Positions 2,323 through 21,947 of a stretch of 64,000 nt of DNA are shown piece by piece; the first letter of the stretch is position 1; every line of letters begins with the position of its first letter. The notes under the pieces were generated by a model, which was not told where the DNA came from, made no database searches, and was given only the letters and a program-made list of their open reading frames with translations. This DNA is from Halobacillus karajensis (GTDB lineage: Bacteria > Bacillota > Bacilli > Bacillales > Halobacillaceae): positions 62,001 through 126,000 of the forward strand of contig NZ_FNWW01000007.1 in NCBI RefSeq assembly GCF_900108515.1, read 5' to 3'. A program made the translations under genes and the position numbers.

Positions 2323-3783
2323 TTATACCCAGCGGGATGTCAAAACTTTTTTGCGGGTGTAGAATTCCAGTCCATCTTTACCATTTGCATGAAGGTCGCC
2401 ATAGAAAGAATCTTTCCATCCTGAGAATGGGAAGAAGGCCATCGGAGCTGGGACCCCAATGTTAACCCCTAACATACCGGCATCAATGGTTTCACGGAAT
2501 TGACGTACTTTACCTCCATCTTTAGTAAAAATACAGGCACCGTTGGCAAAACGTGATTGGTTGGTCAATGTTACAGCTTCCTGTAAGTCTTTGACACGGG
2601 CGATTGACAGGACAGGGGCAAAGATTTCATCCTGCCAGATCTTCATTTCCGTCGTCACCCCATCAAAAATGGTGGGCCCTACAAAATAACCATTGCCCTC
2701 TACATTTTCATCCTTCCTACCATCCCGGATAAGAACGGCTCCTTCTTTTTCACCTGTTTCGATATAGTTAAGCGTGCGTTCTTTGTGATTTTCTCGTATC
2801 ACAGGCCCAAGAAAAACTCCTTCTTCTAATCCATTACCGATACGTATGTCGTCTGCCTTACCCTTAAGCATATCAATGAACTCGTCGGCTACATCCTCTT
2901 CTACCGCTACTACTGAAGCGGCCATGCAGCGCTCTCCCGCCGATCCGAAAGCTGCATTCAATATTTGTGTCGCGGCATTCTCGATGTTTGCATCCTTCAA
3001 GACAATCGAATGGTTTTTGGCTCCTGCCAAGGCTTGTACCCTTTTTAAATTTTCAGTTCCTCGTTTATATACATACTCCGCTACTGGTTGTGAACCAACA
3101 AAAGAGATGGCTGCTACTTCTTTATGGTCTAACAGTCCATTCACGACATCGTGTGCCCCGTGGACAATATTAAAGACTCCCTTAGGCAGCCCGGCCTCTT
3201 CAAGAAGCTCAGCCAAACGGTTTGCCAATAACGGTGTGCGCTCAGAAGGTTTTAATACAAAGGTGTTTCCCGTTACGATGGCCATAGGGAACATCCAAGC
3301 CGGAACCATCATAGGGAAGTTAAACGGTGTAATCCCCCCTATGACTCCGATGGGATATCGATATACCCCTGAATCCAATCCTGCGGCAATAGAAGGAAGC
3401 TGTTCTCCCATCATTAAAGTAGGAGCGCCAGAAGCAAATTCTACGTTTTCAATTCCACGCTGCACCTCTCCATAAGCTTCCTTAAAGCTCTTTCCATTTT
3501 CAATCGTTACAATTTCAGCTAACTCATCCCAATGATCGACAAGCAACTGCTGAAATTTAAACAGAATCCTTGCCCGCTTAGGCACGGGAACCTCTTTCCA
3601 CTCTTGAAAAGCTTCGTTTGCTGTTTTCACAGCCTCCTCTACATCTTCTTGAGACGAAATGGGAACATGGGCAATCACTTCTCCTGTGGCAGGGTTATAA
3701 ACGGGCTCTATATCGCTAGATTTTGCATCCACCCATTCGCCGCCAATATAATTTTGCAACGTACCTTCGTTTATTTGTGTCAT
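2323..3783 (-). CDS. mmsA: CoA-acylating (methyl)malonate-semialdehyde dehydrogenase (MmsA/IolA family)
   Basis: NAD-dependent, CoA-acylating aldehyde dehydrogenase. In its family it turns malonate semialdehyde into acetyl-CoA plus CO2, or methylmalonate semialdehyde into propionyl-CoA. About 486 residues, full length. Visible are the cofactor region ([19 protein letters not shown]), the catalytic cysteine in [11 protein letters not shown], and the family C-terminus ([18 protein letters not shown]). An ATG follows a GTG; either is compatible with the GGAGG site. It is the last gene of a tight operon with a GntP permease and an iron alcohol dehydrogenase and has no inositol genes beside it. 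A role on the semialdehyde made by the neighbouring dehydrogenase is therefore more likely than myo-inositol breakdown. Substrate is inferred. Confidence 0.88.
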
Positions 3784-3807
3784 CACTAATTTCCTCCTTC
3801 ATGATCA

Positions 3808-5160
3808 TTAAAAAATAGAATACAAGATTACGGCTAAGAACATCGCTATCAATGGAACCAAAACACTTAATATAAAAATAGGTTTGTAGGCTCGTTTATG
3901 TGATTCCCCGCAAATCGCACGTATGGTAGTCACCACATAGCCATTATGGGGCAATGAATCAATTCCCCCAGAGGCAAGAGCCGAAATTCTATGCATCCCC
4001 CCAGGATCAAGTCCTTGACTTAAATAAATCGGACTTAGGATAGGCAGGGCAATTCCTAATCCACCAGAAGCAGAACCAGTAATCCCACATACGATTGTTA
4101 CGCCTAATGCTAGGCTTAATAAAGGTGGACCAGGCATGTTAACTAGAGAATCGACTAGATTGTCAAAAGCTGAAACTTGTGCTGCTACACTGCCAAACCC
4201 CACAACAGCACAGGTATTCGCTAAAGCTACTAAAGCATTTTGGGTGCCAATAGCAAGAGAACCCCAAAAATCAGACAAAAACTTAGACATCGTTATGGAA
4301 GCAAAAGCGATCCCTGCCGCTAGTGCAATCAATAAAGCGGTAGTAGGATTCATGAACTGACCCAATATGTTTAAAAGGACGATAACTAAAGCCAGCGGTA
4401 AGATCGAAATAAGAATCGCCGGCAATTGCTTTATTTCTGTCTGCTCCTTTTCCTGGAGCTCACCTGCTTCCACGGCCGAAGCAGATTCATTTTTGGCCGA
4501 AGCCATTTCTTGGGGCAGCATAAAGAATTCTCCGTCTTCCTTAGCTTTCCTTACTAATCTGCCTAACCAAAAACCTCCGGCAACCATGACAAAAAATGCA
4601 CATAGAAAACCAATAAAACCACCAGCTGTTGGAGTTGTTCCAAAATATTCTGTCGGAATAATATTTTGAATTTCTGGCGAACCGGGGGCTGTCATCGTAA
4701 ATGAGATCGAACCGAAAACGAGGGCTGCTGGTATAAACCGATGGGGTAAGTTGGCAGCCCGAAATAATGAGACGGCAATTGGATATACGGCAAAACCTAC
4801 AACAAATAAACTGACCCCACCATAGGTCATAATAGCGGCAGCTGCTACAACAGCAAATACCGCTCTTTTTGTCCCGAACGTATGTTTAATCCATTGAGCA
4901 ATACTTTCTGCTGATTTTGTCTCTTGCATCACCTTCCCGAAGATAGCTCCTAATAGAAAGACTAGAAACCAGGAAGAGAAATAATCCGTAAAACCGCTCA
5001 TGTAGTCTTCTTTTAGAGCGGTTGCTAGATTTAAGCCACCGGTGACTGCAACCAAAACAGAACTTAGAAGGGCAGCAATAATGATATTAATCCCCTTCAT
5101 CGTAAGATAGATTAATAGAACAAGGGATAATACTAACCCGACGACACCAATGATATTCAC
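3808..5160 (-). CDS. GntP-family carboxylate:H+ symporter
   Basis: Integral membrane permease of the GntP (gluconate/hydroxyacid) family, about 450 residues with 11-13 hydrophobic segments across the whole length and a hydrophilic loop near residues 210-245. Small-residue stretches such as TGSASGGLGIALPIL and the late GGIDSLPHNG segment fit the family. The start is a GTG four bases after the stop of the upstream dehydrogenase gene, so the two are probably translationally coupled. With its neighbours it most likely imports the short hydroxycarboxylate they oxidise; the exact substrate cannot be read from sequence. Confidence 0.85.
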   Translation of the reverse strand: MNIIGVVGLVLSLVLLIYLTMKGINIIIAALLSSVLVAVTGGLNLATALKEDYMSGFTDYFSSWFLVFLLGAIFGKVMQETKSAESIAQWIKHTFGTKRAVFAVVAAAAIMTYGGVSLFVVGFAVYPIAVSLFRAANLPHRFIPAALVFGSISFTMTAPGSPEIQNIIPTEYFGTTPTAGGFIGFLCAFFVMVAGGFWLGRLVRKAKEDGEFFMLPQEMASAKNESASAVEAGELQEKEQTEIKQLPAILISILPLALVIVLLNILGQFMNPTTALLIALAAGIAFASITMSKFLSDFWGSLAIGTQNALVALANTCAVVGFGSVAAQVSAFDNLVDSLVNMPGPPLLSLALGVTIVCGITGSASGGLGIALPILSPIYLSQGLDPGGMHRISALASGGIDSLPHNGYVVTTIRAICGESHKRAYKPIFILSVLVPLIAMFLAVILYSIF

Positions 5161-5164
5161 GGCT

Positions 5165-6352
5165 CTACCCCAACTTACTTTCTAAGTATTCGTAGTTATA
5201 GCAAACCCTGTAGAGCTCTTCGATTTCCAGCTGATCCGGAACTCGTGGATTATTGGAAGGGCTGCCGCTTTCTAATGCATCGGTTGCCATTTTTCTGATA
5301 GCGCTGTCAAATGACTCCTCTTCGATTCCCCATTCTTTTAAATTCGGGATATTCAACTCCAAACATAAGTCTTTCACAGCATTTACGGCTAAGTCGGCCG
5401 CTTGGTTATCCGGCCATGTTTCTGAACGGGAATCAAAAATTCTGCCTAAATCGGCTAAACGTTCAATGGCATACGTTTTACTGAACTCTAATACAGCGGG
5501 TAACAACATAGCATTAGAGTACCCATGAGGAACATGAAATAATGCACCAATTGGACGCGACATCCCATGGACAAGACAAACGGAGGAATTGGAGAAAGCG
5601 ACTCCCGCCTGCATGGCTCCTAGAGACATCGCTTCTCTTGCATCGATATTCTCACCATCTTCATACGCCGTTTTGATATGACCGACAATCAATTTCATAG
5701 CAGACCGGGCCATATCATCAGTCATAGGATGGGCTCTTCTAGAAATATAAGCTTCAATAGCATGGCTTAAAGCGTCAATCCCAGTTGCTGCCGTTACATT
5801 CTTGGGTGATGTTACGGTCAACAATGGATCAACAATAGCCGCATCAGGCATAAATGCCGGCTGTTTGATCATCATCTTCACATCATTCGTAGTGTTGGTA
5901 ATGATCGTTACATCTGTAGCTTCTGAGCCAGTCCCAGCTGTTGTTGGGATGGCTATATGCGGAACATTTTTACTGGCGATTTTTCTTCCGCCCATGTACT
6001 CTCCAATATAACCACCATTTACGGCTAAAACAGAAACAGCTTTTGCTGTATCGATGCAGCTCCCTCCACCAAGGGAGATCACTATATCACAGCTTTCATT
6101 TTTAAATATTTTCATAGCCTCTGCGACATAGGTATCGGTAGGCTCAGATTCCACCCCTAAATATAAAGCGCTTTCAACTCCTTCATGGTTTAAATATTCC
6201 TTTGCTTTACGAACGTGCCCAAGGCTGTCCATCACATGATCGCTGACAACAAGAGCTTTGTTACCCCGCTCAGCCGCTTCTTTTCCTATTCTTTCAAAGG
6301 CATGACGGCCATAATTTACCGTAGACGGCATTCGAAATACATAGCTTTCCAT
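5165..6352 (-). CDS. Iron-containing alcohol dehydrogenase
   Basis: NAD(P)-dependent, Fe-type alcohol dehydrogenase of about 395 residues. Seen are the GGGSCIDTAKA nucleotide-binding segment, PTTAGTGSEAT, the iron-binding region with DALSHAIEAY, and two further His ligands in LVHGMSRPIGALFHVPHG. It is the first gene of the operon, directly behind a sigma-54 promoter, and is followed by the permease after four bases. Since the third gene is a CoA-acylating semialdehyde dehydrogenase, oxidation of an omega-hydroxyacid (for example 3-hydroxypropionate to malonate semialdehyde) is the simplest reading. 4-Hydroxybutyrate is an alternative. Fold is certain, substrate is inference. Confidence 0.87.
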   Translation of the reverse strand: MESYVFRMPSTVNYGRHAFERIGKEAAERGNKALVVSDHVMDSLGHVRKAKEYLNHEGVESALYLGVESEPTDTYVAEAMKIFKNESCDIVISLGGGSCIDTAKAVSVLAVNGGYIGEYMGGRKIASKNVPHIAIPTTAGTGSEATDVTIITNTTNDVKMMIKQPAFMPDAAIVDPLLTVTSPKNVTAATGIDALSHAIEAYISRRAHPMTDDMARSAMKLIVGHIKTAYEDGENIDAREAMSLGAMQAGVAFSNSSVCLVHGMSRPIGALFHVPHGYSNAMLLPAVLEFSKTYAIERLADLGRIFDSRSETWPDNQAADLAVNAVKDLCLELNIPNLKEWGIEEESFDSAIRKMATDALESGSPSNNPRVPDQLEIEELYRVCYNYEYLESKLG

Positions 6353-6390
6353 TTAACTCACACCCCTTTTTTCATATTCACTTATCCATA

Positions 6391-6407
6391 TGCAAGATTT
6401 ATGCCAA
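6391..6407 (-). promoter_or_regulatory. Sigma-54 (-24/-12) promoter of the hydroxyacid operon
   Basis: The minus strand reads TTGGCATAAATCTTGCA, matching the RpoN consensus with GG at -24 and GC at -12 in correct spacing, about 40 bp before the dehydrogenase start. A sigma-54-dependent activator is encoded immediately upstream, which makes this call strong. Confidence 0.88.
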
Positions 6408-6446
6408 GTTAAACGGACTTTCCTGCCAGCCTTTTTCACCCTCATT

Positions 6447-6486
6447 TGTAGATTCACCCCTACACTTTTGTATATATACATCTACA
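6447..6486. promoter_or_regulatory. Candidate enhancer sites for the sigma-54 activator
   Basis: Repeated TGTAGA/TCTACA-type half sites: TGTAG at 6447, CTACA at 6460, a TGTATATATACA palindrome at 6469-6480 and TCTACA at 6481. They lie about 45-85 bp upstream of the -24 element. The same half site recurs as a full palindrome in front of the regulator gene (8320-8333). Confidence 0.6.
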
Positions 6487-6491
6487 CTTGT

Positions 6492-8303
6492 TCATTCTAA
6501 CCGATACTTTTTCAGCTTTTGATACAAAGTTGTTCGATGAATCCCTAGTTGTTGAGCAGCTTTAGTTTTATTCCCATCGGTTTGCTTCAGCGTTTTTTCT
6601 ATAAGGTCCCTTTCTCTTTCCATCTTTTCATTTTTCACTTGATGAAAAAGGGAGTATGAAGACTCTTCCATTGGACTTTTACGGCGTTCTTCTCTTATAA
6701 ATTCCTCTGGAAGGTGATTCGTGTCGATCATATCTTCATCCACCATAACGACCAATTTTTCCAATGTATTGATTAATTCTCTAATATTCCCCGGCCACTC
6801 ATAATTCATAAATATAGCCATAGCCTCCGATGTCAAACCTTTTCGAGAAACCTCATATTTCTTGCACAACGCTTTTAAATAATAGGAGACAAGAGGTGGA
6901 ACATCATCTGGTCGGTCCCGCAGTGGTGGAATAGGTATTTCGAGGATATTTAAGCGATAGTAGAGATCTTCCCGAAACTCTCCTTCCTCTACTAATTCTT
7001 TAAGATTTCGATTGGTGGCTGCTATGATTCTAGTATTGATGTTATAGACATGCGTGCCTCCTACACGTTCTACTTGTTTTTCCTGAAGGACCCTCAGCAA
7101 TTTTGCCTGCATCATTAACGGCATTTCCCCAATTTCATCTAAAAATAAGGTTCCGTTTTGTGCTAATTCAAATTTGCCTGGCTTTCCTCCTTTACGAGCC
7201 CCAGTAAAGGCTCCTTCCTCGTAACCAAACATTTCCGATTCAAATAACTGCTCAGGAATAGCTCCGCAATTCAAAGGTACAAAAGGGCCTGATGAAAAGG
7301 AGCTCAAGTGATGAATGCCTCTTGCAAACAATTCCTTTCCCGTTCCACTCTCGCCTGTAATTAAAACGGTGGCACTCGTTTTGGCTACCTTCCGTGCCAA
7401 CCGTTTACGGTCCGCGTTCCTTTCACTATCCCCTATAATTTGGTCGAGGGTCATTTTATAAGTCTTTGTTTGTTTTTGCTCTGTTGTTTTTTGAGAGCTC
7501 TCTAGTTCCCGTTGGGTTCCCTGTAGTCTTTCATAAATTCGATATACCTCTGTAACCCCTTCAAAAATCAGCATCCCAATAGCCCCCACCACTTTACCCT
7601 CTTTCCATATTGGAATACGATGAACAATCATCGGCTGTCCTTGAATATACTGAATAACCCCTCTTTCTGGCATCCCTGTTTTTAATGTTTCAGGTAATCT
7701 TGTATTATCAATCACGTCTTCTACATGACGCCCTAACGCATGGTCTTGAGAAATACCAGTGAAGCGGCTATAGGAATGATTAAATTCCCTTAGTATCCCA
7801 TTTTCGTCTACAACGGCTATCCCTTCATAGGCACTTTCCAAAATGACAGGAAGAATCTCAGCTGAATGTTCTTTTTCATTTATCTTTTCAAAATAACTTG
7901 TAAACCCTTTCAATATTTCGTTTTTTGATAGGATTCCCATGAACTGATTCTGGTCATTCACCACATTAAAATAGGAACATTTCGTCTCCACTAGATCTAA
8001 TAAAGAATCGTTTACATTTACAAGGTGATTTAGATCTCCTACCTTTGTGTCTTTCAATCCCTTTCCTGGTCTGTTCATCAATTCTTTCCCGAGTATAGGC
8101 CACGTCGCAATCCCTGCTGGTTGAGAATCATCCCCAAGAACAGGCAAAACGTCTGTATCCAGCTCAACCATCATTTCCGCTGCTTCTCTCACAGTCATAT
8201 AGACTGAAATATGAGCAGGCGGCTGAATCATCCAATTTTCCATACGTAAAGGATTATCTTTTCCGGCCTGTTGATTCGGTTGATTTATAAAATTCTTCCC
8301 CAT
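6492..8303 (-). CDS. Sigma-54-dependent transcriptional activator with CBS and PAS sensor domains
   Basis: Bacterial enhancer-binding protein of about 603 residues. In order: a tandem CBS-domain region (about residues 20-135), a PAS domain (about 150-260), an AAA+ domain with Walker A GESGTGKE, the sigma-54 contact loop GAFTGA and Walker B LFLDEIGEM, and a C-terminal Fis-type helix-turn-helix (TKAAQQLGIHRTTLYQ). Start chosen at ATG 8303 (MGKNF), five bases after GAGG; an in-frame ATG 33 bases upstream lies within a probable operator. It should sense a small ligand or adenine nucleotide through CBS/PAS and switch on the adjacent operon at 6391-6407. Confidence 0.92.
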   Translation of the reverse strand: MGKNFINQPNQQAGKDNPLRMENWMIQPPAHISVYMTVREAAEMMVELDTDVLPVLGDDSQPAGIATWPILGKELMNRPGKGLKDTKVGDLNHLVNVNDSLLDLVETKCSYFNVVNDQNQFMGILSKNEILKGFTSYFEKINEKEHSAEILPVILESAYEGIAVVDENGILREFNHSYSRFTGISQDHALGRHVEDVIDNTRLPETLKTGMPERGVIQYIQGQPMIVHRIPIWKEGKVVGAIGMLIFEGVTEVYRIYERLQGTQRELESSQKTTEQKQTKTYKMTLDQIIGDSERNADRKRLARKVAKTSATVLITGESGTGKELFARGIHHLSSFSSGPFVPLNCGAIPEQLFESEMFGYEEGAFTGARKGGKPGKFELAQNGTLFLDEIGEMPLMMQAKLLRVLQEKQVERVGGTHVYNINTRIIAATNRNLKELVEEGEFREDLYYRLNILEIPIPPLRDRPDDVPPLVSYYLKALCKKYEVSRKGLTSEAMAIFMNYEWPGNIRELINTLEKLVVMVDEDMIDTNHLPEEFIREERRKSPMEESSYSLFHQVKNEKMERERDLIEKTLKQTDGNKTKAAQQLGIHRTTLYQKLKKYRLE

Positions 8304-8319
8304 GTAAACCTCTTCTCCC

Positions 8320-8333
8320 TCTACATTTGTAGA
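8320..8333. promoter_or_regulatory. Palindromic operator in front of the sigma-54 activator gene
   Basis: Perfect palindrome TCTACATTTGTAGA between the alternative start codons, 17 bp before the preferred start. The half sites match those upstream of the target operon, suggesting autoregulation. The remaining intergenic sequence 8334-8611 has no further feature I can name. Confidence 0.55.
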
Positions 8334-8611
8334 CATTTATTTTTAATTATTACAAACAAAGGGACTTCACACAAATAAGGTTCACATGAGATCAGCGCCT
8401 TTGGTGTTTAATTAATGTTTCCCCCTTGTCTTCAGCACCCATTCTTATAGAGAAGACATCCATTCCAAATCTTTGATATTCAGCGGATACAATGGGCGAT
8501 GAGGCAAGGATTTTTAATCCCCACTTTCGCCCACACAAAGTTTTTTAAAGGGCAATAGGATATCACAAAAGATTGAGTTTCCAAAATTTCAAGAAAAGGA
8601 TGATTCTAAAG

Positions 8612-10585: not shown

Positions 10586-12526
10586 CTAAAGCTTTTCATT
10601 GATCCAAACAACCATCCCGCCCGGCTCCCTATTACACCAAGCATAATAGGGAATAGCTTTTAAATGAATCGGCTTTACTTCCTGATCACTTGTACTGTAT
10701 AATGCATCCTTCCACACACTCCCTTCCACCCTTTCAGCTTCCCCAAAGAGCGTAACGACACCGCCCAGCAGATCCTCTTCATACTCAAATTTAAGATCAG
10801 CATCTTTAGGGAGGTAAATCGAGTGGAGCTCCTTACCATGATCAACTTCTTCCAAGCAATACACGATCGGTCCTCTTTGAATCGCCACTTTCCCCAAGCT
10901 ATGCCTTACTGAAGGATGGGAACGAACCCTTTGAATCTCCATATCTAAATTCAGTTCGACTGTATCGCCTTGCTTCCACGTACGGGAGAGGCGAGCATAT
11001 CCATTTTTCATGATCGGTTGGAAGTCCATGATCTCCCCATTTATTTTTACGTCAGCTTTTGTCGCCCATCCGGGGATCCGAAGAGCCAGCGTAAAAGAGG
11101 TATCAACTTCAGGTGAAAGCTTAATAGTGACTTCCCCATCCCAAGGATAGTTGGTCTTCTGTTTAATTTCCACTTGGTGACCGCCGACTTCCATGTTATT
11201 TTCATTGCTCATATATAAATGGACAAAAATTTCTTCTTCCCTTTTTGTGTAAATATAGTGGGAGATCGATGCAATTAGACGTGCCAGGTTCGGCGGGCAG
11301 CAGGCACACCCATACCATTTCTGCCTAACAGGCGGTACATGTTTCTTTTCATCACGACTTTCCACTTCCTTCGGGACCACTTCAAGGGGGTTGACGTAAA
11401 AGAATGTCCGCCCGTCTAAATCCATACCGCTGATCGCCCCATTGTATAATGCCCGTTCCATTACGTCCGCATATTTATGGTGAGCCTCCAGGTCAAGCAT
11501 TCGCTTAGCCCAGAAAATCAAACCAATGGAAGCACACGTTTCCGTATAAGATAAATCATTGGGAAGATCGTAATCAAAAGAAAAAGCTTCTCCATATTCC
11601 ATAGAACCTATCCCTGCGGTCAAATACATCTGCTTGTTGGTCACATTATTCCATAGTTTTTCACATGTTTCTTTTAGCGAGGGATCATTGGTGTAAGCAG
11701 CTAAATCAGCCATCGCTGAATACATATACACCGCCCGAACCGCATGACCTGTGGCTGTTTCCTGTTCTCGAACAGGCAGGTGGGATTGACTATACCTATA
11801 TCCCCCTGTGAACCAATAAGGCTTTTCTTCCTTTCTTGCTTGTTTTTCCAAATCGAAATAATGAGGCCGCTTGCCTCGTTCTTCAATAAAGAACTCGCTT
11901 AATTTCAAATATTTATGGTTGTTAGTGACTTCATACAGTTTCACCAGCGCAAGTTCGATCTCCTGATGTCCCGGATATCCCTTCCTTTTATGGTTTTCAG
12001 GTCCGAAGGTCTCCTCGATATAATCGGCGTATCTGATCATAATATGGAGGAATTTATCTTTTCCCGTCGCTCTATAATAAGCAACCGCCGCCTCAATCAA
12101 ATGACCGGCACAATACAATTCGTGATGGTCACGTAAATTCGTCCAGCGCTGATCAGGTTCTTTGACCGTATAATAGGTATTTAAGTAACCATCTGCCCCT
12201 TGCGCTTTCTCCAGAAGGTTAATGACTTCATCCGCTGTCGTTTCCCACTTAGCATCTGGTTCATTTTCCAGCAGAAAAGCGACAGCCTCCAACCATTTGG
12301 CGACATCACTGTCTTGAAAAACCATGCCATAGAATTCTCCTTCTGATTCCCCTGCAGCTATCCGAAAGTTTTCAATCGCATGACTGGGCTCTGTATCAGG
12401 CAATCGATCATTTAAAGCCTCCCATTGATAAGGGATCATTTGATTTTTGACGATGTCTAATCGTTTTTTCCAGAATCTGTCGGTGATTTTCACATGACTC
12501 TCCCACACTTTTTCCATGTAAATCAC
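10586..12526 (-). CDS. GH127 beta-L-arabinofuranosidase
   Basis: Glycoside hydrolase of the GH127 (former DUF1680) family, about 646 residues with no signal peptide, hence intracellular. Family members release L-arabinose from beta-1,2-arabinobiose and related hydroxyproline-linked chains of plant extensins. The zinc/cysteine active site is visible: SYTETCASIG (Glu and Cys ligands) and the CACCPPN motif with the nucleophilic cysteine and second ligand. An (alpha/alpha)6 barrel is followed by beta-domains (LRIPGWATKADVKING). A GTG start follows AAAGGAG; an ATG three codons later is possible. It is the last gene of the long operon, separated from araL by 41 bp. Confidence 0.9.
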   Translation of the reverse strand: MIYMEKVWESHVKITDRFWKKRLDIVKNQMIPYQWEALNDRLPDTEPSHAIENFRIAAGESEGEFYGMVFQDSDVAKWLEAVAFLLENEPDAKWETTADEVINLLEKAQGADGYLNTYYTVKEPDQRWTNLRDHHELYCAGHLIEAAVAYYRATGKDKFLHIMIRYADYIEETFGPENHKRKGYPGHQEIELALVKLYEVTNNHKYLKLSEFFIEERGKRPHYFDLEKQARKEEKPYWFTGGYRYSQSHLPVREQETATGHAVRAVYMYSAMADLAAYTNDPSLKETCEKLWNNVTNKQMYLTAGIGSMEYGEAFSFDYDLPNDLSYTETCASIGLIFWAKRMLDLEAHHKYADVMERALYNGAISGMDLDGRTFFYVNPLEVVPKEVESRDEKKHVPPVRQKWYGCACCPPNLARLIASISHYIYTKREEEIFVHLYMSNENNMEVGGHQVEIKQKTNYPWDGEVTIKLSPEVDTSFTLALRIPGWATKADVKINGEIMDFQPIMKNGYARLSRTWKQGDTVELNLDMEIQRVRSHPSVRHSLGKVAIQRGPIVYCLEEVDHGKELHSIYLPKDADLKFEYEEDLLGGVVTLFGEAERVEGSVWKDALYSTSDQEVKPIHLKAIPYYAWCNREPGGMVVWINEKL

Positions 12527-12567
12527 AAGTCTCCTTTAATGGATTTCTAAGATATACAATCCTTCCT

Positions 12568-13350
12568 TCATGTACCTGCTAAATCTTTAAGGGAATGGAA
12601 GACATAATCCGGAGGCCTCTCCACATCGGAAATCATCTCTATGGTGGTATTTCCAGACAGAACGAGCGCTGTTTTAATGCCATATTTCCCCATCGCGATG
12701 TCAGAATCAAGACTATCACCGACGATCATGGTTTTTTCTACCGTCATTTGAAGACGATCCATAGCACATTCAAACATGTGAACAGATGGTTTCCCCACCA
12801 CGACCTCTGGGGTCTTTCCAGTAGTTGCTTCAATCGCTCCCAGCATTCCAGCTACATCTATAGATAAGCCGCGGGAGCTGGGATAGGCACGATCATTATT
12901 CGTAGCGATTATTCTTGCACCATTCATAACTGCTTGAAACGCCTGATCCAAATCGTGATAGGTGACTCCTGTATGAAGGGAAACCACAAGCCAAGCAGCA
13001 TCCTCAGGGAGTGAAGCTAATGGAATACCGCTTTCTTGCAGTTCCTCGATCAACCCTCCTTCCCCTAACACCCAAACAGCTTCATTCGGATGATGTTTTC
13101 GTAAATATTCAGCTGCCACATGGGATGTCAGGATGATATCTTTTGGGGCAAGGTTCACACCTTTCTCTTGTAAAATAGAGGCCACCTGCCTGCGGGAATG
13201 CGTCCCCCGATTACTCAGAGCTGCCACTCGTTTCCCTGCCTTTTGGAGTTCCTGGATGGATTCTGCTGCTCCTTCAATCAGCTCCAGCTCTTTCCATACA
13301 GTTCCATCTAAATCAATCAGGAATCCTGATGTTTCATCAAACCTGCTCAT
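12568..13350 (-). CDS. araL: HAD-IIA sugar-phosphate phosphatase AraL
   Basis: HAD-superfamily phosphatase of the NagD/AraL group, about 260 residues, cytosolic. Motif I is FLIDLDGTVW and motif IV VGDSLDSDIAMG; a C2-type cap lies between. In B. subtilis AraL lies in the ara operon and dephosphorylates sugar phosphates, probably to prevent their accumulation. The ATG overlaps the galM stop codon in an ATGA arrangement, indicating translational coupling. Context and length support AraL over other NagD-like enzymes. Confidence 0.85.
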   Translation of the reverse strand: MSRFDETSGFLIDLDGTVWKELELIEGAAESIQELQKAGKRVAALSNRGTHSRRQVASILQEKGVNLAPKDIILTSHVAAEYLRKHHPNEAVWVLGEGGLIEELQESGIPLASLPEDAAWLVVSLHTGVTYHDLDQAFQAVMNGARIIATNNDRAYPSSRGLSIDVAGMLGAIEATTGKTPEVVVGKPSVHMFECAMDRLQMTVEKTMIVGDSLDSDIAMGKYGIKTALVLSGNTTIEMISDVERPPDYVFHSLKDLAGT

Positions 13351-14402
13351 TGAGTTGCTCCTATCCCGAACTTAAACACCGTTCGTCTGTGATAGGGCTC
13401 ATCAGGGGAAAGAACGATCTCAGGAAATCCTTCTTCATGTAAAGATGCCGGAGAACTTTGCGTTTCGATACAGATACCTGAGTGCTTCCTTGTTTTCCCT
13501 TCAACCAGGGCTTTCCCTTCTGGAAGATTGTTAGAGGTATAGACGACAACGCCTGGCTGGTCTGTTTCTACTTCAAGCGTACGTCCTGACGTTTCATCCT
13601 CCAGCCGAATGTCTGGCTTTTCTTCCCCATCGAGCAGGAAGAAATGATCGAGTCCACCATTCGCAACCCTTTGTTGTGTTGTTTCATAGGAAAGGCTGGA
13701 ACCCAGCAATCTCTGTTTTCGAAAATTAAACGGCGTCTCATTTAGGTTGATCCATTCTCCTGTCGGGATGAGCTCCTCATCCAGCTCGGCAAAGCATGAA
13801 CTGTTTAAACGTAAGGTATGGTCATGAACAGTCGTATCGGCTTGTCCACTCAAATTAAAGTAAGAGTGGTTGGTCAATGTCAGCACTGTGGTCTGATCGG
13901 TCTCAGCAAAGTAGTCGATGATCAAGCAATTATCATGGGTCAGCGTGTAAGTTACCGCAACATCAATAGTCCCTGGATAGCCTCCCTCCCCGTCAAAACT
14001 TTTGTGGGAAAGCGTGACGCCGATTTCCCCATCATCTTCAAAGGGGGAGGCGTTCCAAAGTTGTTGGTGAAAGCCTTTTTTTCCGCCGTGAAGGTGATGT
14101 TCTCCTTCATTCGCTTCGACCCGATACTCTTTTCCTTCTAATTGAAAAGAAGCTCGCTGAATACGGCCAGCTACTCGTCCAATTAATGCGCCAAGATACC
14201 CTGGATTTTCCACGTACTCAGCGAAATTTTTATAGCAGAGTACGACATTTTTAGAATCCCCCTTACGATCAGGGACAGAAATATTTGTGATTATACCGCC
14301 AAAGTTTAGAAAATGGACACTCATCCCCTGGTCATTTTCCAATTGAAATAAATTCCAAGTTTCTTGTCCTGGTACTTGGATTTCTTTTGTCTTCCTATTC
14401 AT
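13347..14402 (-). CDS. galM: Aldose 1-epimerase (mutarotase)
   Basis: Interconverts alpha and beta anomers of free sugars such as L-arabinose. About 351 residues from ATG 14402 (MNRKT), preceded by GGAG at seven bases; a longer in-frame start has no ribosome site. Catalytic His residues appear in HLHGGKKGFHQQLW and LTNHSYFNLSG, and the catalytic Glu in GICIETQSSP. It is embedded between the DUF6171 gene and araL with overlapping ends, so it serves this operon, supplying the anomer used by arabinose isomerase. Confidence 0.9.
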   Translation of the reverse strand: MNRKTKEIQVPGQETWNLFQLENDQGMSVHFLNFGGIITNISVPDRKGDSKNVVLCYKNFAEYVENPGYLGALIGRVAGRIQRASFQLEGKEYRVEANEGEHHLHGGKKGFHQQLWNASPFEDDGEIGVTLSHKSFDGEGGYPGTIDVAVTYTLTHDNCLIIDYFAETDQTTVLTLTNHSYFNLSGQADTTVHDHTLRLNSSCFAELDEELIPTGEWINLNETPFNFRKQRLLGSSLSYETTQQRVANGGLDHFFLLDGEEKPDIRLEDETSGRTLEVETDQPGVVVYTSNNLPEGKALVEGKTRKHSGICIETQSSPASLHEEGFPEIVLSPDEPYHRRTVFKFGIGATQ

Positions 14403-14659
14403 AAACCGTCTCCTTCTTCCCAACGACTGCCCTCAGGATGAGGACAGTGTTTATAAGATAACTTTGCTCTAAATTGGACAAAACAGCCACAATGCATGCA
14501 GGTGGTTTTGTCATGAAGCGATGTACATGAAGCACACTCTGTCAGCCTGTTTTCATAAACACTGGGTGAAACTAAATCGGTCTCTAGAGCGAGCTGATCT
14601 TCGATTTGCTCCATTACATCCTCCCGATATAAATGAGGCGGACAAGCTCTACAACTCAT
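14399..14659 (-). CDS. Small Cys-rich DUF6171-type protein
   Basis: About 86 residues starting MSCRACPPHL, with further cysteine pairs ECASC and CMHCGC and a late KHCPHP, a likely zinc-ribbon arrangement. It resembles the DUF6171 family as I remember it; no biochemical function is known to me. ATG 14659 has a GGAG site at eight bases; the gene overlaps araM upstream by 11 bp and galM downstream by 4 bp, so it is co-translated with sugar genes. Its regular place in an ara operon suggests a link to AraM or sugar processing, but that is inference. Confidence 0.7.
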   Translation of the reverse strand: MSCRACPPHLYREDVMEQIEDQLALETDLVSPSVYENRLTECASCTSLHDKTTCMHCGCFVQFRAKLSYKHCPHPEGSRWEEGDGL

Positions 14660-15833
14660 GGTCACTTCTCCATGAAATCGAGAGGTCTTCTGTTTTTGCC
14701 TGATTGATCAAGTACAAACCTGTACAACGATCTCGAATCGTAAAGGCTTTGTTAAGGCTTTCATGAACGAGCGCACTGTCTATTCCTAAATCGGAGGGTA
14801 CTTGAGCCCCCCCTGTTAATTGCAGCCAATCTAAAACATCAACATAGTCAGGCAGACGGGAGATTTCTTCTGCTATTCTAGGGGTGTGCGCTCCGAATAC
14901 ACTCTCATCCTCGGCATAAAATTGATAGAGTTGGATCAGGATGGCGGTAGCAACCCCAACTTTCGCTCCATGCAGGACTTGCGGCGCGCCTTTTTTCAGT
15001 AAATCCATTTCCCAATAATGCGAGAGATGATGTTCCCCTCCGGATGCTGGCCTTGAAAAGTCGAGCAGCAGCATGACAAGTCCTGACTCAATCAGTGCCT
15101 TTATTAAGATGCGAATGCCTTCCTCATCAGCTTTGGCAATTTCATTGACGTGATCTACACAGTTGTAAAGAGAACGTCTCGTCAAGTTTGCCGCCGTTTC
15201 ATTATAGGGTTCATCATTTACCCAATGAGAAATCTTCCAGTCTAGCAGAGAGGTCATTTTAGCAATCATATCTCCAAAACCGGCGGCTGTCATTTCAAGG
15301 GGTGCCTCTTTAAGAATATCAATATCGGCAAATACAGCTATTGGGGAAACCGTTTGGATCGTCTGCTTGAACCCCCGCAAAATCAAGGGTGCCCCTTTGG
15401 AGGTAAAGCCGTCCACTGAGGCAGCTGTAGGGACAGAAATAAAAGGGGCACCCATTTTGGAGCTGCAGAAACGGGTAATGTCATGAATCGTTCCGGATCC
15501 AATTGCAAGGAGTACATCTACCCGGGGCGGCGTTTCAACGAGTACTTGAACGATGGATGGTTCATCAGCAAGCACCTGACCATTGGTATTGGGTGTTATC
15601 TGTACTGGTGCCACCTCATACCCGCCCTGTTCCAGGATAGTAGCTATTTTCTTTCCCGCAGCTTTCCATGTATGCTGATCAGCAATGAGGGCCACATGTT
15701 TGAAGCCCCGGTGGTTCAGATATTCTGGTAAGGCTTCGATCGACCCTTTATCAATATTTATGTAAGGCAGGACCTTGTCAGGATCTTCCTCTAATTCAAA
15801 AGCCAATTGTTTCATCTCTTGTAAATCATTCAT
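14649..15833 (-). CDS. araM: sn-Glycerol-1-phosphate dehydrogenase AraM
   Basis: NAD(H)-dependent reduction of dihydroxyacetone phosphate to sn-glycerol 1-phosphate, as shown for B. subtilis AraM. About 394 residues, full length. The nucleotide-binding segment LLAIGSGTIHDITRF and PTAASVDGFTS, and metal-site regions (AAGFGDMIAK, SGGEHHLSHYWE, LHGAKVGVAT) are all present. The ATG is preceded by AGGAGG. Part of the downstream half of the arabinose operon, as in B. subtilis araL-araM order but with extra genes between. Confidence 0.93.
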   Translation of the reverse strand: MNDLQEMKQLAFELEEDPDKVLPYINIDKGSIEALPEYLNHRGFKHVALIADQHTWKAAGKKIATILEQGGYEVAPVQITPNTNGQVLADEPSIVQVLVETPPRVDVLLAIGSGTIHDITRFCSSKMGAPFISVPTAASVDGFTSKGAPLILRGFKQTIQTVSPIAVFADIDILKEAPLEMTAAGFGDMIAKMTSLLDWKISHWVNDEPYNETAANLTRRSLYNCVDHVNEIAKADEEGIRILIKALIESGLVMLLLDFSRPASGGEHHLSHYWEMDLLKKGAPQVLHGAKVGVATAILIQLYQFYAEDESVFGAHTPRIAEEISRLPDYVDVLDWLQLTGGAQVPSDLGIDSALVHESLNKAFTIRDRCTGLYLINQAKTEDLSISWRSDHEL

Positions 15834-15895
15834 TCTTTTCCTCCTATCTATGTGTTTAGTTTAAGAAGCTTCCCCCCATAAACTGAATCCATGGA

Positions 15896-17380
15896 TTAAG
15901 GTTTGAGAGATAATAGAACGACAGACATTGCCGGTATCGTTGCCTTTAATTGATTATCCTCTATAGAGAAACCTTGAAAGCCCTGTGGTTTCACTTTTTC
16001 CGGATTTTCAAAGGTATTATGATCGTTCATATGGTCGGAGGTGAGAATTCTTCCCGTTCCATCATGATAGCTTTTTCCTCGGAGGGCTATCTCAATCATT
16101 GCCTCTTCCTCTGTATCTAAGTTACACGCGCTGATGTTTACGGTCCCATCCTTAGCCATGGAGGCTGAAGCTTGGATTTTAGGGAGATTCACATCTCCAT
16201 GGACAATCTGTTCTGTTTCTGCTTCGATAGGCAGGCTCTCTGCATCCTGATGCACTTTATACATGTCAAAAATATGATAAGTCGGGGTGAGAATCATTTG
16301 ATCCCCTTCTGTGAGAATCATAGATTGTAAAACATTAACCGTCTGGGCTATATTAGCCATTTGAACCCGATCAGAATGATGATTGAAAATGTTTAACGAA
16401 ACTCCTGCAACTAAAGCATCTCTGATCGTGTTTTGCTGATAAAGGAAACCAGGGTTGGTCCCAGGCTCAACATCGAACCATGTTCCCCATTCATCAACAA
16501 CTAAGCCCACGCGCTTTTCAGGGTCATAATGGTCCATAATTGTGGAATGCTTTGTAATTAATTCATCCATATAAAGCGCTCGTGACATTGTGATATCCCA
16601 TTCATTTTGGTCAAAGTCTGTGGCAGAACCTTTTTTCTTCCAAAATTCCCCTGGGTATGTATAATGGTGGAGACTTAACCCGTCCATTAAGTCGGAAGCT
16701 TCTCTCATCAGCACTTCTGTCCATGTATAATCGTCCACATTTGGTCCGCAGGCTATTTTGTAGAGGTTATTGTCTCCATAATTTCTGACGTAGGTTTGAT
16801 AACGACGATATAAGTCTGCATAATATTGCGGTCTCATATGACCCCCGCATCCCCAATTTTCATTCCCAATGCCAAAATATGTCACCTTCCACGGATCCTC
16901 TCTGCCGTTTTCTTTTCTCCAGTCCGCCATCGGAGATTCTCCATCGAACGTCATATACTCAACCCACTCAGACATTTCCTGGACTGTACCGCTGCCAACA
17001 TTCCCGGAAATATACGGCTCGGCTCCCAGAAGATCACAGAGCTTCATGAATTCGTGGGTACCAAAGTGGTTGTTTTCGATTATCCCACCCCAATGCGTAT
17101 TGATCATTCGCTTGCGATCTTCCCGCGGCCCTACGCCGTCTTTCCAGTGATATTCATCAGCAAAGCAACCGCCCGGCCAGCGAAGGACAGGAATATCAAT
17201 GTTTCGAAGCGCTTCCAAAACATCTGTACGAATACCGTTCTGATTAGAAATGGGGGAGTCTTCCCCCACCCAAATTCCTTCATATATACAACGGCCTAAA
17301 TGCTCGGCAAAATGTCCATAAATATTGCGATTAATTTTCCCTTTGGAAATATCTGTATTAATCACCATTCGATTTCCCAT
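15896..17380 (-). CDS. GH51 alpha-L-arabinofuranosidase (Abf2-type)
   Basis: Intracellular GH51 enzyme of about 494 residues that removes terminal alpha-L-arabinofuranosyl groups from arabino-oligosaccharides. Acid/base Glu lies in [12 protein letters not shown] and the nucleophile in LVVDEWGTW; an (alpha/beta)8 barrel plus C-terminal beta-sandwich is typical. The start is ATG 17380 (MGNRM), since GAGGTGG overlaps the ATG nine bases upstream. Paired AraR boxes and a 220-bp intergenic region show it begins its own transcription unit, which continues into araM, DUF6171, galM, araL and GH127. The second GH51 gene is at 20168. Confidence 0.92.
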
Positions 17381-17458
17381 TCCATCCACCTCTTTGATTA
17401 TTTTTCATCTTTAGAACCATTAAAAGACGCTTGAAGTAGAAAAGCCACAGCCATCTCA

Positions 17459-17516
17459 ACTTAATCGTATATGACGACCTCACACAGGACCACACCAATA
17501 ACTTGTACGTATATTT
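17459..17516. promoter_or_regulatory. AraR box pair upstream of the GH51/araM unit
   Basis: ACTTGTACGTATATTT (17501-17516) and a weaker ACTTAATCGTATATGA (17459-17474), with centres 42 bp apart. The first is close to the B. subtilis AraR consensus ATTTGTACGTACAAAT. Confidence 0.75.
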
Positions 17517-17567
17517 AGAGTAAGGAATGTATTCCTATTTGTCAATAATCATTCAGAAAGTTTCGAA

Positions 17568-17616
17568 TAAAAAAACTGCCTGTCTACTTAATAGTAGAGA
17601 TCAGGCAGCTTTTTTA
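17568..17616 (-). terminator. Terminator overlapping the 3' end of the DUF624 gene
   Basis: Minus-strand hairpin built on AAGCTGCCTG...CAGGCAGTTTTTTTAT; its 5' arm encodes the last residues of the DUF624 protein. Confidence 0.8.
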
Positions 17617-18239
17617 TGAGCGGTAGGATTGGTTCTGATGTTGGCAAGCACTTGATAAGCAAGCCACATCCAGCCCAGAAAGAGCAAGGCGAAAGAAAAG
17701 AAAGGGATCAATGATGGCAGTTTTAAGGAGTAATATCCCACTGCAAACCATACCACTGCCATTCCGAAGGACAGGTGGATTTTAGTAAGTCCCAGAATAA
17801 AAGCGTTTTTTATGTGCTGCTGGAGGGATCCTTTATAATAAACCATTAATGGGAAAACCCACAGAATCACCAACCCGTACAAAAAAACAAGAGCTATAAA
17901 AGCAAAAGGGACGAGAAAAAAGATCGAGCCATCCATGGATTTCAGGAGGAGATAGTTGATATATAGAATTCCGCCGGTCATTGATATCAGCACCCCTATG
18001 AGATTAGCGGTTTTCCATTCCTGCTTATACAGCTGCCAATAGGTCTGCCAAAGCGGAACAGTGACATGACCGTTAAACCATTTCTTTGTCAGACTGAGAG
18101 TGGCGGCTATGGATGGGAAAAGACCGAATAATACGCCCCCAGCAAGCATGCCAATTAGAAACAGAGCATTTAACCCCGCTAGTCGTGTCATCCATTTTAA
18201 ATATCCATTCAGCTTAGAAATCAGGCCATTATTATTCAT
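17601..18239 (-). CDS. YesL-like DUF624 membrane protein
   Basis: About 212 residues with five to six hydrophobic segments (LFLIGMLAGGVLFGLFP, FFLVPFAFIALVFLYG, FALLFLGWMWLAY), matching the DUF624 family that accompanies sugar ABC transporters in Firmicutes. The molecular role is unknown; a membrane accessory to carbohydrate uptake is the usual guess. It sits 97 bp after araQ in the same direction, behind a terminator-like hairpin, so expression may depend on partial read-through. Confidence 0.82.
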   Translation of the reverse strand: MNNNGLISKLNGYLKWMTRLAGLNALFLIGMLAGGVLFGLFPSIAATLSLTKKWFNGHVTVPLWQTYWQLYKQEWKTANLIGVLISMTGGILYINYLLLKSMDGSIFFLVPFAFIALVFLYGLVILWVFPLMVYYKGSLQQHIKNAFILGLTKIHLSFGMAVVWFAVGYYSLKLPSLIPFFSFALLFLGWMWLAYQVLANIRTNPTAHKKAA

Positions 18240-18297
18240 TATTCATTGAGAGCCCCCTTGGTACCAGTCAGCTTTATGATCACACAAACCTTTGAAT

Positions 18298-18331
18298 TAG
18301 AAAATAACCGGACTCTAATCCAGAGCCCGGT
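18298..18331 (-). terminator. Terminator-like hairpin after araQ
   Basis: Minus-strand stem ACCGGGCTCT/AGAGTCCGGT with one mismatch, followed by TATTTTCT, immediately after the araQ stop codon. Confidence 0.65.
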
Positions 18332-18336
18332 GATAG

Positions 18337-19176
18337 CTATCCTTTTACTCCCCCGACAGTCAGGCCCGAAACAAAGTACCGTTGGAAGAAAATAAATAAT
18401 AATATGATCGGTATGATGGTCATAACCGATCCGGCAATTAAAACATCGTAATTGTTGCCGTATGGCGTCAGCAAGGTAGCTAAACCAATCGGAAGGGTAA
18501 ACATATCATTGGATCTGAGCACTAATAATGGCCACAAGAAATTGTTCCAGCTTGCTAAACCTTGCAGTATCGCCATCGCTGCAAGAGATGGACCCATGAG
18601 AGGAAGCATAATTCTGAAGAAAATCCCATACTCTGTCGCCCCGTCGATTCTCGCTGCATCCATTAATTCTTTAGGAAGCCCTAACGCATATTGTCTGAAA
18701 AAAAATACGGCTACCGGGGCCACAATCATAGGAAGAACCACGGCAAAATAAGTATTGATCAGTTGCGTATCAATCATCAGTTGGTAAAGCGGGAGCATCA
18801 GGATCTCGAAGGGAACCATCAGAATGAACAGGACAAGAACAAAGAAAACGTTCCCTCCCTTAAAGTTGTACATGGCTAATGCATACCCGACCATTGATGA
18901 GAAGAACAAGGACAGAATGATTGTAATGGCTGAGATGATCATACTGTTGCCATACCATGCCCAATATTCACTAGATTGTGTGAAGATGTACGCATAATTA
19001 TCAAGACCTAATAGTTCCGTATCAATGTTAAAGGTGATGCCGCTTCTCATTAAAACAGAAGAAGGCATAAAGGACGAAATCAATAAGCTGATGATCGGAA
19101 ATAAAGCGATTAGAGAAATAAGCGCAAACGCTCCATTGGCAAACCAGACAAGGCCTTTATTTTTTTTATTCTTCAT
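18337..19176 (-). CDS. araQ: Arabino-oligosaccharide ABC transporter permease AraQ
   Basis: MalG-type inner-membrane permease of about 279 residues with six predicted helices. The EAA loop, which contacts the ATPase, is present as LMDAARIDGATEYGIFFRIMLP, read here in part as AARIDGATEYG. It directly follows araP, whose stop abuts this start. The operon lacks an ATPase gene, so, as in B. subtilis, a shared multitask ATPase (MsmX) is expected to energise uptake. Confidence 0.92.
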   Translation of the reverse strand: MKNKKNKGLVWFANGAFALISLIALFPIISLLISSFMPSSVLMRSGITFNIDTELLGLDNYAYIFTQSSEYWAWYGNSMIISAITIILSLFFSSMVGYALAMYNFKGGNVFFVLVLFILMVPFEILMLPLYQLMIDTQLINTYFAVVLPMIVAPVAVFFFRQYALGLPKELMDAARIDGATEYGIFFRIMLPLMGPSLAAMAILQGLASWNNFLWPLLVLRSNDMFTLPIGLATLLTPYGNNYDVLIAGSVMTIIPIILLFIFFQRYFVSGLTVGGVKG

Positions 19177-20124
19177 TTATGCCCCCTCCTTTTTAAAGGT
19201 TCCTGTCATAATAAGGTAAATGAAGCTGACTACGAAAATGATCAGCATGAGAACAACTCCAACTGCGGCACCGAATCCCATGTCATTCTGCTGAATGCCC
19301 TGCTGATAAATATAGCCAACTACCGTCAGGCCAATGTTCCCCGGTGAACCGGCTTCCCAAAATACAAAGCTTTCTTCAAACATCCTGAAACCATTAATGA
19401 TGGTAATCGTACTCACGAAAATGATGATAGGTTTCAATTGAGGCAGTGTGATATACCATAGCTTTTGGAAACGGGAAGCGCCGTCAATATCAGCTGCTTC
19501 GTATAGCTCTTCGGGAACGTTTTGCAGGGCGGCTAAAAAGTAGAGCAAATTAACACCAATCCATCGCCAAGAAGCTAATAAGACCATTAGCAACATTCCC
19601 GACCAGGCTGTAAATCGCCAATTGACAGGATCAAAACCAAGGAAACTAATAAATTGGTTCGCTGCAGCTGTTTCCTGCTCCCCAAACATCAAGCGGAAAA
19701 TCATCCCCCCGACAATCGTAGAAGTTAACGCTGGCACAAATAACGATGCTCGAAATAGAGTCTTAAGTTTTATAACTTTTGAATTTAAAAACACTGCAAG
19801 AAGCATCGGGATAAAGGTCAAAATAATCACCGTTAATATGACATAGACCGTCGTATTGGTCAAAGCTTTATAAAAGGTGCCATTCGGGACCCTAGTATAG
19901 TTCTGCATCCCAATGAATTCCACTTGACCCGGTAAAACACTTTGGAAACTCATGATGATTCCCTGAATGGCAGGGTAGAGAGTCAAGACCAGAAAAGAAA
20001 GGATGAACGGTGTAACAAAAATATAAGGAACGACTTTTTTGGAGTTTAAGAACTTCATAACCTTACTGGATTCTCTTTTGGTCTTCGGACGCACTCTTGC
20101 ACCGCTATTAGACATTGTATTCAT
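19177..20124 (-). CDS. araP: Arabino-oligosaccharide ABC transporter permease AraP
   Basis: MalF-type permease, about 315 residues, six predicted helices after a basic cytosolic N-terminus (RVRPKTKRES). The ATPase-coupling EAA loop appears as EAADIDGASRFQKLWYITLP. ATG 20124 has an AGGAGG site. It lies between the GH51 gene abfA and araQ in one transcription unit, fitting import of arabinose oligomers that abfA cleaves. Confidence 0.92.
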   Translation of the reverse strand: MNTMSNSGARVRPKTKRESSKVMKFLNSKKVVPYIFVTPFILSFLVLTLYPAIQGIIMSFQSVLPGQVEFIGMQNYTRVPNGTFYKALTNTTVYVILTVIILTFIPMLLAVFLNSKVIKLKTLFRASLFVPALTSTIVGGMIFRLMFGEQETAAANQFISFLGFDPVNWRFTAWSGMLLMVLLASWRWIGVNLLYFLAALQNVPEELYEAADIDGASRFQKLWYITLPQLKPIIIFVSTITIINGFRMFEESFVFWEAGSPGNIGLTVVGYIYQQGIQQNDMGFGAAVGVVLMLIIFVVSFIYLIMTGTFKKEGA

Positions 20125-20167
20125 AGGAACCTCCTCCTAAGTAGATAGCTAATTTCAAACAAGGACG

Positions 20168-21685
<1,518 letters not shown>

Positions 21686-21714
21686 TCACTCCTCCTGTTA
21701 TTTTTGACCCTTTC

Positions 21715-21728
21715 TGTATGCGCTTCCA
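21715..21728. promoter_or_regulatory. cre-like CcpA site upstream of abfA
   Basis: The minus strand reads TGGAAGCGCATACA, fitting the cre consensus TGNAANCGNWNNCA, between the AraR boxes and the abfA start. Confidence 0.65.
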
Positions 21729-21754
21729 ACATTTGCAATGTTTCCTTAGTTCCT

Positions 21755-21812
21755 TGATATACGAACATATTAATTACCAACCTATCAAACAACTAAATAT
21801 GTACGTATAAGC
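21755..21812. promoter_or_regulatory. AraR box pair upstream of abfA-araPQ
   Basis: TGATATACGAACATAT (21755-21770) and ATATGTACGTATAAGC (21797-21812), with centres 42 bp apart and both containing the central ACG core of AraR operators. Confidence 0.75.
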
Positions 21813-21906
21813 TATTGTTTAAAGTATAGCTAACTTCCCATCCGTTTTCAATAAGTTTTCAATGATTTTGTAGAATAATCTGAATTTTCCGCCGGTGTTT
21901 GTCATA

Positions 21907-21940
21907 ACAAAAGCGGCCAGGAAAATAATCCTTGCCGCTC
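21907..21940 (-). terminator. Terminator after the arabinose-binding lipoprotein gene
   Basis: Minus-strand hairpin around GCGGCAAGG...CCTGGCCGC with a TTTTGTTA tail, just past the stop at 21948. Confidence 0.75.
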
Positions 21941-21947
21941 CTTTCTT

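Follow-up and report, generated by a model that had tools for sequence, protein, structure and literature searches.

A conserved sigma-54-controlled gene cassette of Halobacillus karajensis, probably for the catabolism of external 3-hydroxypropionate

Oxidative catabolism of 3-hydroxypropionate (3-HP) is known chemistry. In the 3-HP branch of gammaproteobacterial dimethylsulfoniopropionate (DMSP) breakdown, dddBC serve 3-HP catabolism through malonate semialdehyde within a syntenic dddBCDRT group (excerpts of PMC9327192), dddT, dddB and dddC being clustered with dddD (excerpts of PMC8163506). The mmsA operons for 3-HP of Cupriavidus necator and Pseudomonas denitrificans (hpdH/hbdH-mmsA) also join a hydroxyacid dehydrogenase to a (methyl)malonate-semialdehyde dehydrogenase (MMSDH), and 3-HP raises the expression of hpdH and mmsA2 (excerpts of PMC6572756). 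Here we analyse a cassette at 2323-8336, minus strand, of a 64,000-nucleotide stretch of Halobacillus karajensis DNA (the window, in whose positions coordinates are given). It encodes an iron-containing alcohol dehydrogenase (Fe-ADH), a GntP-family permease, an MMSDH and a sigma-54 activator. Our comparisons indicate that it is probably a portable catabolic operon through which externally acquired 3-HP would be oxidised to acetyl-CoA, and the pathway is thus of no new kind. Its features are as follows.

2323..3786, minus strand: MMSDH, CoA-acylating (methyl)malonate-semialdehyde dehydrogenase, 487 amino acids (aa) (TIGR01722 and best solved match 1t90)
3808..5160, minus strand: GntP-family permease, 450 aa (PF02447)
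5165..6352, minus strand: Fe-ADH, 395 aa, proposed 3-HP dehydrogenase (PF00465 and PF25137)
6391..6406, minus strand: -24/-12 promoter TGGCATAAATCTTGCA (motif match and conservation)
6447..6464, minus strand: proximal candidate upstream activator site TGTAGGGGTGAATCTACA (conserved pattern)
6469..6486, minus strand: distal candidate upstream activator site TGTAGATGTATATATACA, with one mismatch (conserved pattern)
6492..8336, minus strand: activator with CBS, PAS, AAA+ (sigma-54) and Fis-type helix-turn-helix (HTH) regions, likely start 8303 (Pfam CBS, PAS, Sigma54_activat and HTH_8)

The sequence-only reading of this DNA had described a self-contained sigma-54 operon for a hydroxyacid, made up of tightly linked Fe-ADH, permease and dehydrogenase genes behind a -24/-12 promoter with a dedicated CBS-PAS-AAA+ activator. 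Family scans agree with the name given to each gene at its position, the promoter box was found and the genome encodes rpoN. The operon itself is further supported by a gene set kept among relatives and by upstream activator sites which that reading had not seen. Its proposal of a 3-hydroxypropionate-like substrate still appears the best one; besides family chemistry, it draws on an MMSDH resembling that of the inositol (iol) operon, an Arg266 signature common to the Fe-ADH and a DddB-like enzyme, and the presence of a beta-hydroxyacid dehydrogenase in related cassettes.

In the mechanism we propose, the permease would import 3-HP and the Fe-ADH would oxidise it with NAD+ to malonate semialdehyde, Arg266 presumably holding the carboxylate; the MMSDH would then, by the chemistry of its family, convert malonate semialdehyde to acetyl-CoA and CO2. 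What the activator senses may be the substrate or malonate semialdehyde, recognised by its strongly conserved PAS region, and CBS may add an energy input. It is predicted to bind the TGTAG-N8-CTACA sites, which lie roughly 60-90 bp ahead of the -24/-12 box, sites and box being recognised by their conservation, and once bound would drive RpoN-dependent transcription of the Fe-ADH, GntP and MMSDH genes.

The likeness to dddB-dddC lies in the pairing of an Fe-ADH with an MMSDH, and the Fe-ADH of a ddd-like Pseudomonas plasmid cluster is 43.8% identical to that of the cassette and also carries the signature HGMSRP. In contrast to ddd clusters, the cassette has neither a DddD-like lyase nor a BCCT gene; it has instead a GntP permease and a sigma-54 CBS-PAS activator, where DddR is a LysR-type regulator, and it belongs to Bacillaceae. 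The mmsA operons differ in their dehydrogenases, which are HpdH (whose C. necator relative is annotated as choline dehydrogenase) and HbdH rather than an Fe-ADH, and neither a sigma-54 activator nor a GntP permease is mentioned in the excerpts of PMC6572756.

Conservation of the gene set was followed in a family sample of 44 genomes and in 79 distinct loci returned by a permease alignment search that found 86 relatives in named genomes (four of these loci come from genomes also in the family sample). A permease orthologue of at least 76% identity occurs in 8/44 family genomes, and all eight have activator, Fe-ADH, permease and MMSDH in that order with differing flanks, the activator frame of one of them (G027, locus L060) stopping before the HTH. 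The set is also present in a ninth genome (G029), with the permease reduced to a remnant. Activator, Fe-ADH and MMSDH were found in G039, and only Fe-ADH and MMSDH were seen in G041, G017 and G019; in all, an MMSDH is linked to a cassette-type Fe-ADH in at least 13 of the 44. Among the named loci, the Fe-ADH immediately precedes the permease in 32/79, and all four genes stand in the same order in 23/79, including L103, with a partial activator match, and L106, where the MMSDH is short and another Fe-ADH and permease come after it; locus L112 is interrupted by a contig end. Genera with the cassette include Thalassobacillus, Halobacillus, Oceanobacillus, Virgibacillus, Lentibacillus, Pontibacillus, Marinococcus, Salibacterium and Caldibacillus. 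Across the order, the Fe-ADH is matched at 1e-120 or better in 92 of 397 genomes; at the best 30 of these loci the next gene encodes an MMSDH in 17, a GntP permease in 11 and neither in two, and the activator lies upstream in 17.

The neighbourhood search that the sequence-only reading had proposed thus finds the arrangement across many genera with differing flanks, which is more than chance. That reading knew of no described Bacillaceae operon of exactly this make-up: searches of open-access papers, several of them empty, did not contradict it, which is weak support, but in Bacillaceae a gene set of this composition is no rarity. As for a fifth gene of the module, no other protein family recurs in more than 5 of 39 loci (open reading frames, ORFs, of at least 100 aa, at least 33% identity), single flanking genes not all being identified. 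By eye, L062 and L064 hold a cluster of short-chain dehydrogenase/reductase, hydroxyacyl-CoA-dehydrogenase-like, histidinol-dehydrogenase-like, LacI-type and GntP (46-47%) genes, which adjoins the cassette in G028.

The MMSDH scores 609.1 bits against TIGR01722 (cut-off 448.5) and 762 bits against its best solved match, 1t90, and its catalytic Cys287, Arg110 and Arg286 are conserved in 60/60 aligned MMSDHs. Counting the cassette's own, the genome encodes four such enzymes. Of the other three, the one nearest the cassette enzyme (84% identity) stands between iolC and iolE, and those in a dihydropyrimidinase cluster and beside a 3-hydroxyisobutyryl-CoA hydrolase gene share 66% and 60% with it; in these clusters the names 3-hydroxyisobutyrate dehydrogenase (HIBADH)-like and amidohydrolase rest on scores below their cut-offs. 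We built trees from 61 sequences and, after dropping the aldehyde dehydrogenase of L119 (35% identical), from 60. In both, most cassette MMSDHs are not parted from the iol (IolA-type) enzymes by supported branches, and the pyrimidine-linked and beta-hydroxyacid-dehydrogenase-linked groups are distinct. The iol locus itself differs from the cassette: no Fe-ADH, GntP or cassette activator gene lies within 16 kb around its MMSDH, and a different sigma-54 activator (36%) stands about 6 kb away. Malonate semialdehyde is an intermediate of the inositol route. With an iol-like MMSDH, malonate semialdehyde, and hence 3-HP, is therefore the simplest reading.

The Fe-ADH exceeds the Pfam gathering score of its family, has the expected fold and metal ligands (D193, H197, H262 and H276), and its AlphaFold2 model has a mean pLDDT (predicted local distance difference test) of 94.9. 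Foldseek and VIA-align matches are Fe-ADH-type dehydrogenases and give no clue to the substrate. The names choline dehydrogenase GbsB, lactaldehyde reductase and 4-hydroxybutyrate dehydrogenase were rejected, all scores being below cut-off. The signature HGMSRP, which contains Arg266, is present in 48/48 and 30/30 relatives (two partly overlapping sets) and absent from four paralogues in the genome; the Arg266 position is His in 5/5 solved relatives shown. The enzyme carries this signature and has an MMSDH gene in its operon; HGM(S/A)RP in a gene beside an MMSDH is a combination that we propose here, on our own account and not from the literature, as the mark of a DddB-type 3-HP dehydrogenase.

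The same combination was followed on plasmids, in a hand-picked, non-random sample of 18 Fe-ADHs. Arg occupies the position in 13/18; 8 of these 13 have an MMSDH neighbour with 46% identity or more, as do none of the five that lack Arg. The Arg-type Pseudomonas cluster holds an 838-aa double CoA_transf_3 protein, a BCCT transporter, Fe-ADH, MMSDH, IclR and LysR; its Fe-ADH we infer to be DddB, an enzyme of the Fe-ADH type. GntP-FeADH-MMSDH with IclR is found on two Acinetobacter plasmids, and a haloarchaeal plasmid carries MMSDH-FeADH with the signature HGMARP. On Rhodococcus plasmids the Fe-ADH/MMSDH pair lies amid enoyl-CoA hydratase, crotonyl-CoA carboxylase/reductase and quinone-oxidoreductase-family genes.

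Nine of the 79 named loci (L123, L126-L131, L166 and L173) have no Fe-ADH before the permease; here the permease (56-64%) is followed by one gene and then an MMSDH (42-45%), and the activator (42-46%) precedes the permease in five. The middle gene encodes a beta-hydroxyacid dehydrogenase in both scanned loci, L123 (Neobacillus) and L126 (Lysinibacillus). Both proteins fall below the HIBADH and tartronate-semialdehyde-reductase cut-offs, and the best solved match of the L123 protein is 5je8, named 3-hydroxyisobutyrate dehydrogenase. The cassettes of L124, L125 and L133 (Shouchella and Bacillus sp. JCM 19041) are without a linked MMSDH and are followed by glutaminase A (scanned in L125 only); L124 and L125 have in addition a second Fe-ADH (HALAYP) and an enzyme resembling succinate-semialdehyde dehydrogenase (SSADH). 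The substrate has perhaps changed in these three.

The permease belongs to the GntP family (PF02447, 39.6 bits against a gathering score of 22.5). Gluconate uptake was rejected as its function (TIGR00791, 37.7 against 292.75 bits). A paralogue in the same genome (44%) sits with scoA, scoB and 3-hydroxybutyrate dehydrogenase genes, all above cut-off, which makes a short 3-hydroxyacid a reasonable cargo. This Bacillaceae sigma-54 3-hydroxybutyrate operon resembles the cassette in setting a PAS-type activator and a GntP permease beside a 3-hydroxyacid pathway. It differs in its CoA-transferase chemistry and in having no Fe-ADH or MMSDH, and the activators at the two loci read (L132 and L141; 457 and 465 aa) are too short for the CBS part. 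The copy in the H. karajensis genome (L065, C13:954000-970000) is of the sigma-54 type, with its PAS activator split into two ORFs. Searching plasmids by tblastn with the cassette permease gave 101 records at 1e-5 and one at 1e-74, all less than 60% identical.

The activator probably starts at the ATG at 8303 rather than at 8336; AGAGGGAGAAGAGG precedes the former, which is also the end coordinate of the sequence-only reading. It has the marks of a sigma-54 enhancer-binding protein (PF00158, HTH_8, GAFTGA in the translation, a -24/-12 target and an encoded RpoN), and one CBS stretch, PAS, Sigma54_activat and HTH_8 all exceed Pfam gathering scores. Its best NCBIfam model is that of PrdR, the activator of clostridial proline reductase, matched over nearly the full length; identity with PrdR was rejected at 531.4 bits against an equivalog cut-off of 795, and the target genes differ. 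Among nine family activators, 75 positions are invariant in residues 156-272 (PAS and what follows) and 9 in residues 1-155 (the CBS part), a concentration that points to the PAS region as the sensor.

The promoter box TGGCATAAATCTTGCA lies 39-54 bp ahead of the Fe-ADH start. The 4.07-Mb genome has 6 matches to a strict pattern, TTGGCAYN5TTGCA, against 1 for the reversed control, and the single rpoN gene is above cut-off. The same 17 bases as in the cassette promoter, TTGGCATAAATCTTGCA, also occur at G000:C6:111736-111752, beside another sigma-54 activator gene (C6:111980 onwards). We compared 46 upstream regions, four duplicates having been removed. The sigma-54 box is present in 38/46, a count that had no shuffle control. 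TGTAG-N8-CTACA, with at most one mismatch, is present in 28/28 cassettes encoding an activator of 51% identity or more to that in the window; it is exact in 25/28, and two sites occur in 25/28. The proximal site begins 57-60 bp upstream of the box in 24/28, the exceptions being L102, L108, L118 and L168. None of the other 18 regions has the exact site; one-mismatch sites occur in L105 and L119, where the activator was not found. The half-sites are 14 bp apart in three Marinococcus loci, and Shouchella and Neobacillus regions, whose activators are below 50%, have no TGTAG-N8-CTACA site. The site thus changes along with the activator. Among 4600 dinucleotide shuffles, none had an exact site and none two one-mismatch sites. 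A TGT-N10-12-ACA layout is known for many Clostridiales activators, PrdR included (excerpts of PMC6615313).

An everted CTACA-TGTAG repeat at the activator start was set aside as an autoregulatory site, its orientation differing from that of the upstream sites. A Metabacillus dongyingensis plasmid (L234) carries the activator (48%), Fe-ADH and MMSDH, then a histidinol-dehydrogenase-family protein and a different GntP (36%), with an aminoglycoside 6-adenylyltransferase gene upstream; the sigma-54 box is present there and TGTAG-N8-CTACA absent.

Several observations weigh against 3-HP as the substrate or against the supporting arguments. MMSDHs accept both malonate and methylmalonate semialdehyde, and in the 60-sequence tree the Marinococcus, Metabacillus and Pseudalkalibacillus cassette enzymes fall outside the iol-like group. 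In Lysinibacillus loci L169-L171, MMSDH, permease and Fe-ADH (60-61%) genes occur with one of beta-hydroxyacid-dehydrogenase type (scanned in L169), so that the two dehydrogenases need not be equivalent and replacement is not the sole pattern. All seven searched genomes whose cassette is without an MMSDH have one elsewhere (the match in the L133 genome is partial, with a stop), a weak result because 35/44 family genomes have such an MMSDH anyway; the L112 genome, with its cassette at a contig end, has none at 1e-120. Among the 13 plasmid Fe-ADHs with Arg, five lack a true MMSDH neighbour; a Peribacillus pD plasmid Fe-ADH (70% identical) is without the other cassette genes, and an Arg-type Fe-ADH of Vibrio ponticus lies near GntP and methylglyoxal synthase genes without an MMSDH. 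The Rhodococcus neighbours might suit acrylate-to-3-HP and methacrylate routes equally. No DddD-like protein was found at 1e-60 in the 44 family genomes, H. karajensis included, in a search without a positive control, and no internal source of 3-HP is thereby identified. Genome-wide, the exact TGTAG-N8-CTACA occurs at 2 places (the cassette and inside an ORF on C16) against 5 for the reversed control; this count therefore proves nothing, and the weight of the site comes from its position and conservation.

Our choice of 3-HP over 3-hydroxyisobutyrate leans on comparison. The latter, from valine breakdown, would be oxidised to methylmalonate semialdehyde and on to propionyl-CoA. MMSDH takes its name from that route, and the two semialdehydes are not distinguished by TIGR01722; the beta-hydroxyacid dehydrogenases of related cassettes match the HIBADH and tartronate-semialdehyde-reductase models best, that of L123 being closest to 5je8, and the Rhodococcus neighbours fit as well. 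However, the genome already has a cluster in which a 3-hydroxyisobutyryl-CoA hydrolase (above cut-off) and an HIBADH-like enzyme (below it) have an MMSDH of their own only 60% like the cassette's, whose nearest relative is the iol enzyme, and the Fe-ADH signature is common to the ddd-like cluster. We consider 3-hydroxyisobutyrate unlikely.

Slightly less likely still is a different substrate for the Fe-ADH, whether a short hydroxyacid or a diol (4-hydroxybutyrate, glycerate or 1,3-propanediol), with the MMSDH as a general semialdehyde dehydrogenase. Family membership leaves the substrate of the Fe-ADH undecided, since none of the 17 matching NCBIfam models, 4-hydroxybutyrate dehydrogenase among them, reaches its cut-off, and two Shouchella cassettes adjoin a second Fe-ADH and the SSADH-like enzyme (641.3 against 646.35 in L125). 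That second Fe-ADH, however, has HALAYP and not HGMSRP, and in the 23 four-gene loci any directly following semialdehyde dehydrogenase is the MMSDH relative. The operon might also run in reverse, reducing malonate semialdehyde from beta-alanine or inositol to 3-HP for export against toxicity. Fe-ADHs often act as reductases and a permease is present, but an MMSDH in the same operon consumes the same intermediate, four family genomes retain the Fe-ADH-MMSDH pair without GntP, and dedicated inducible control would suit catabolism; this we hold to be very improbable.

Elsewhere in the window, 10586-29925 resembles by eye an arabinose/arabinoside utilisation region, and 31608-39270 a glucarate-type pathway with a tripartite tricarboxylate transporter.

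In conclusion, the cassette is likely to serve catabolism of external 3-HP, and, more tentatively and with some doubt, its CBS-PAS sigma-54 activator with its own upstream site may represent an undescribed class of 3-HP sensor on a scavenging cassette spread through halophilic Bacillaceae. The Lysinibacillus co-occurrence and the common MMSDH background weaken two of the arguments for these proposals. For a 3-HP operon, no description of this control system, permease and setting was found in searches of open-access papers, several of which were empty. If the cassette does act on 3-HP, Gram-positive halophiles would gain a defined 3-HP route, a residue signature would be available for annotating Fe-ADHs that match best to models such as lactaldehyde reductase, and an inducible sigma-54 sensor for 3-HP, its candidate binding site already mapped, would be to hand. 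Such a sensor would be useful because 3-HP is both a platform chemical (excerpts of PMC6572756) and a DMSP breakdown product (excerpts of PMC9327192). Should the sensor class prove real, the Fe-ADHs with HGM(S/A)RP would belong to a single family of 3-HP dehydrogenases, present in DMSP degraders, Rhodococcus and haloarchaea as well as in Bacillaceae, and free 3-HP would be a shared currency of saline habitats.

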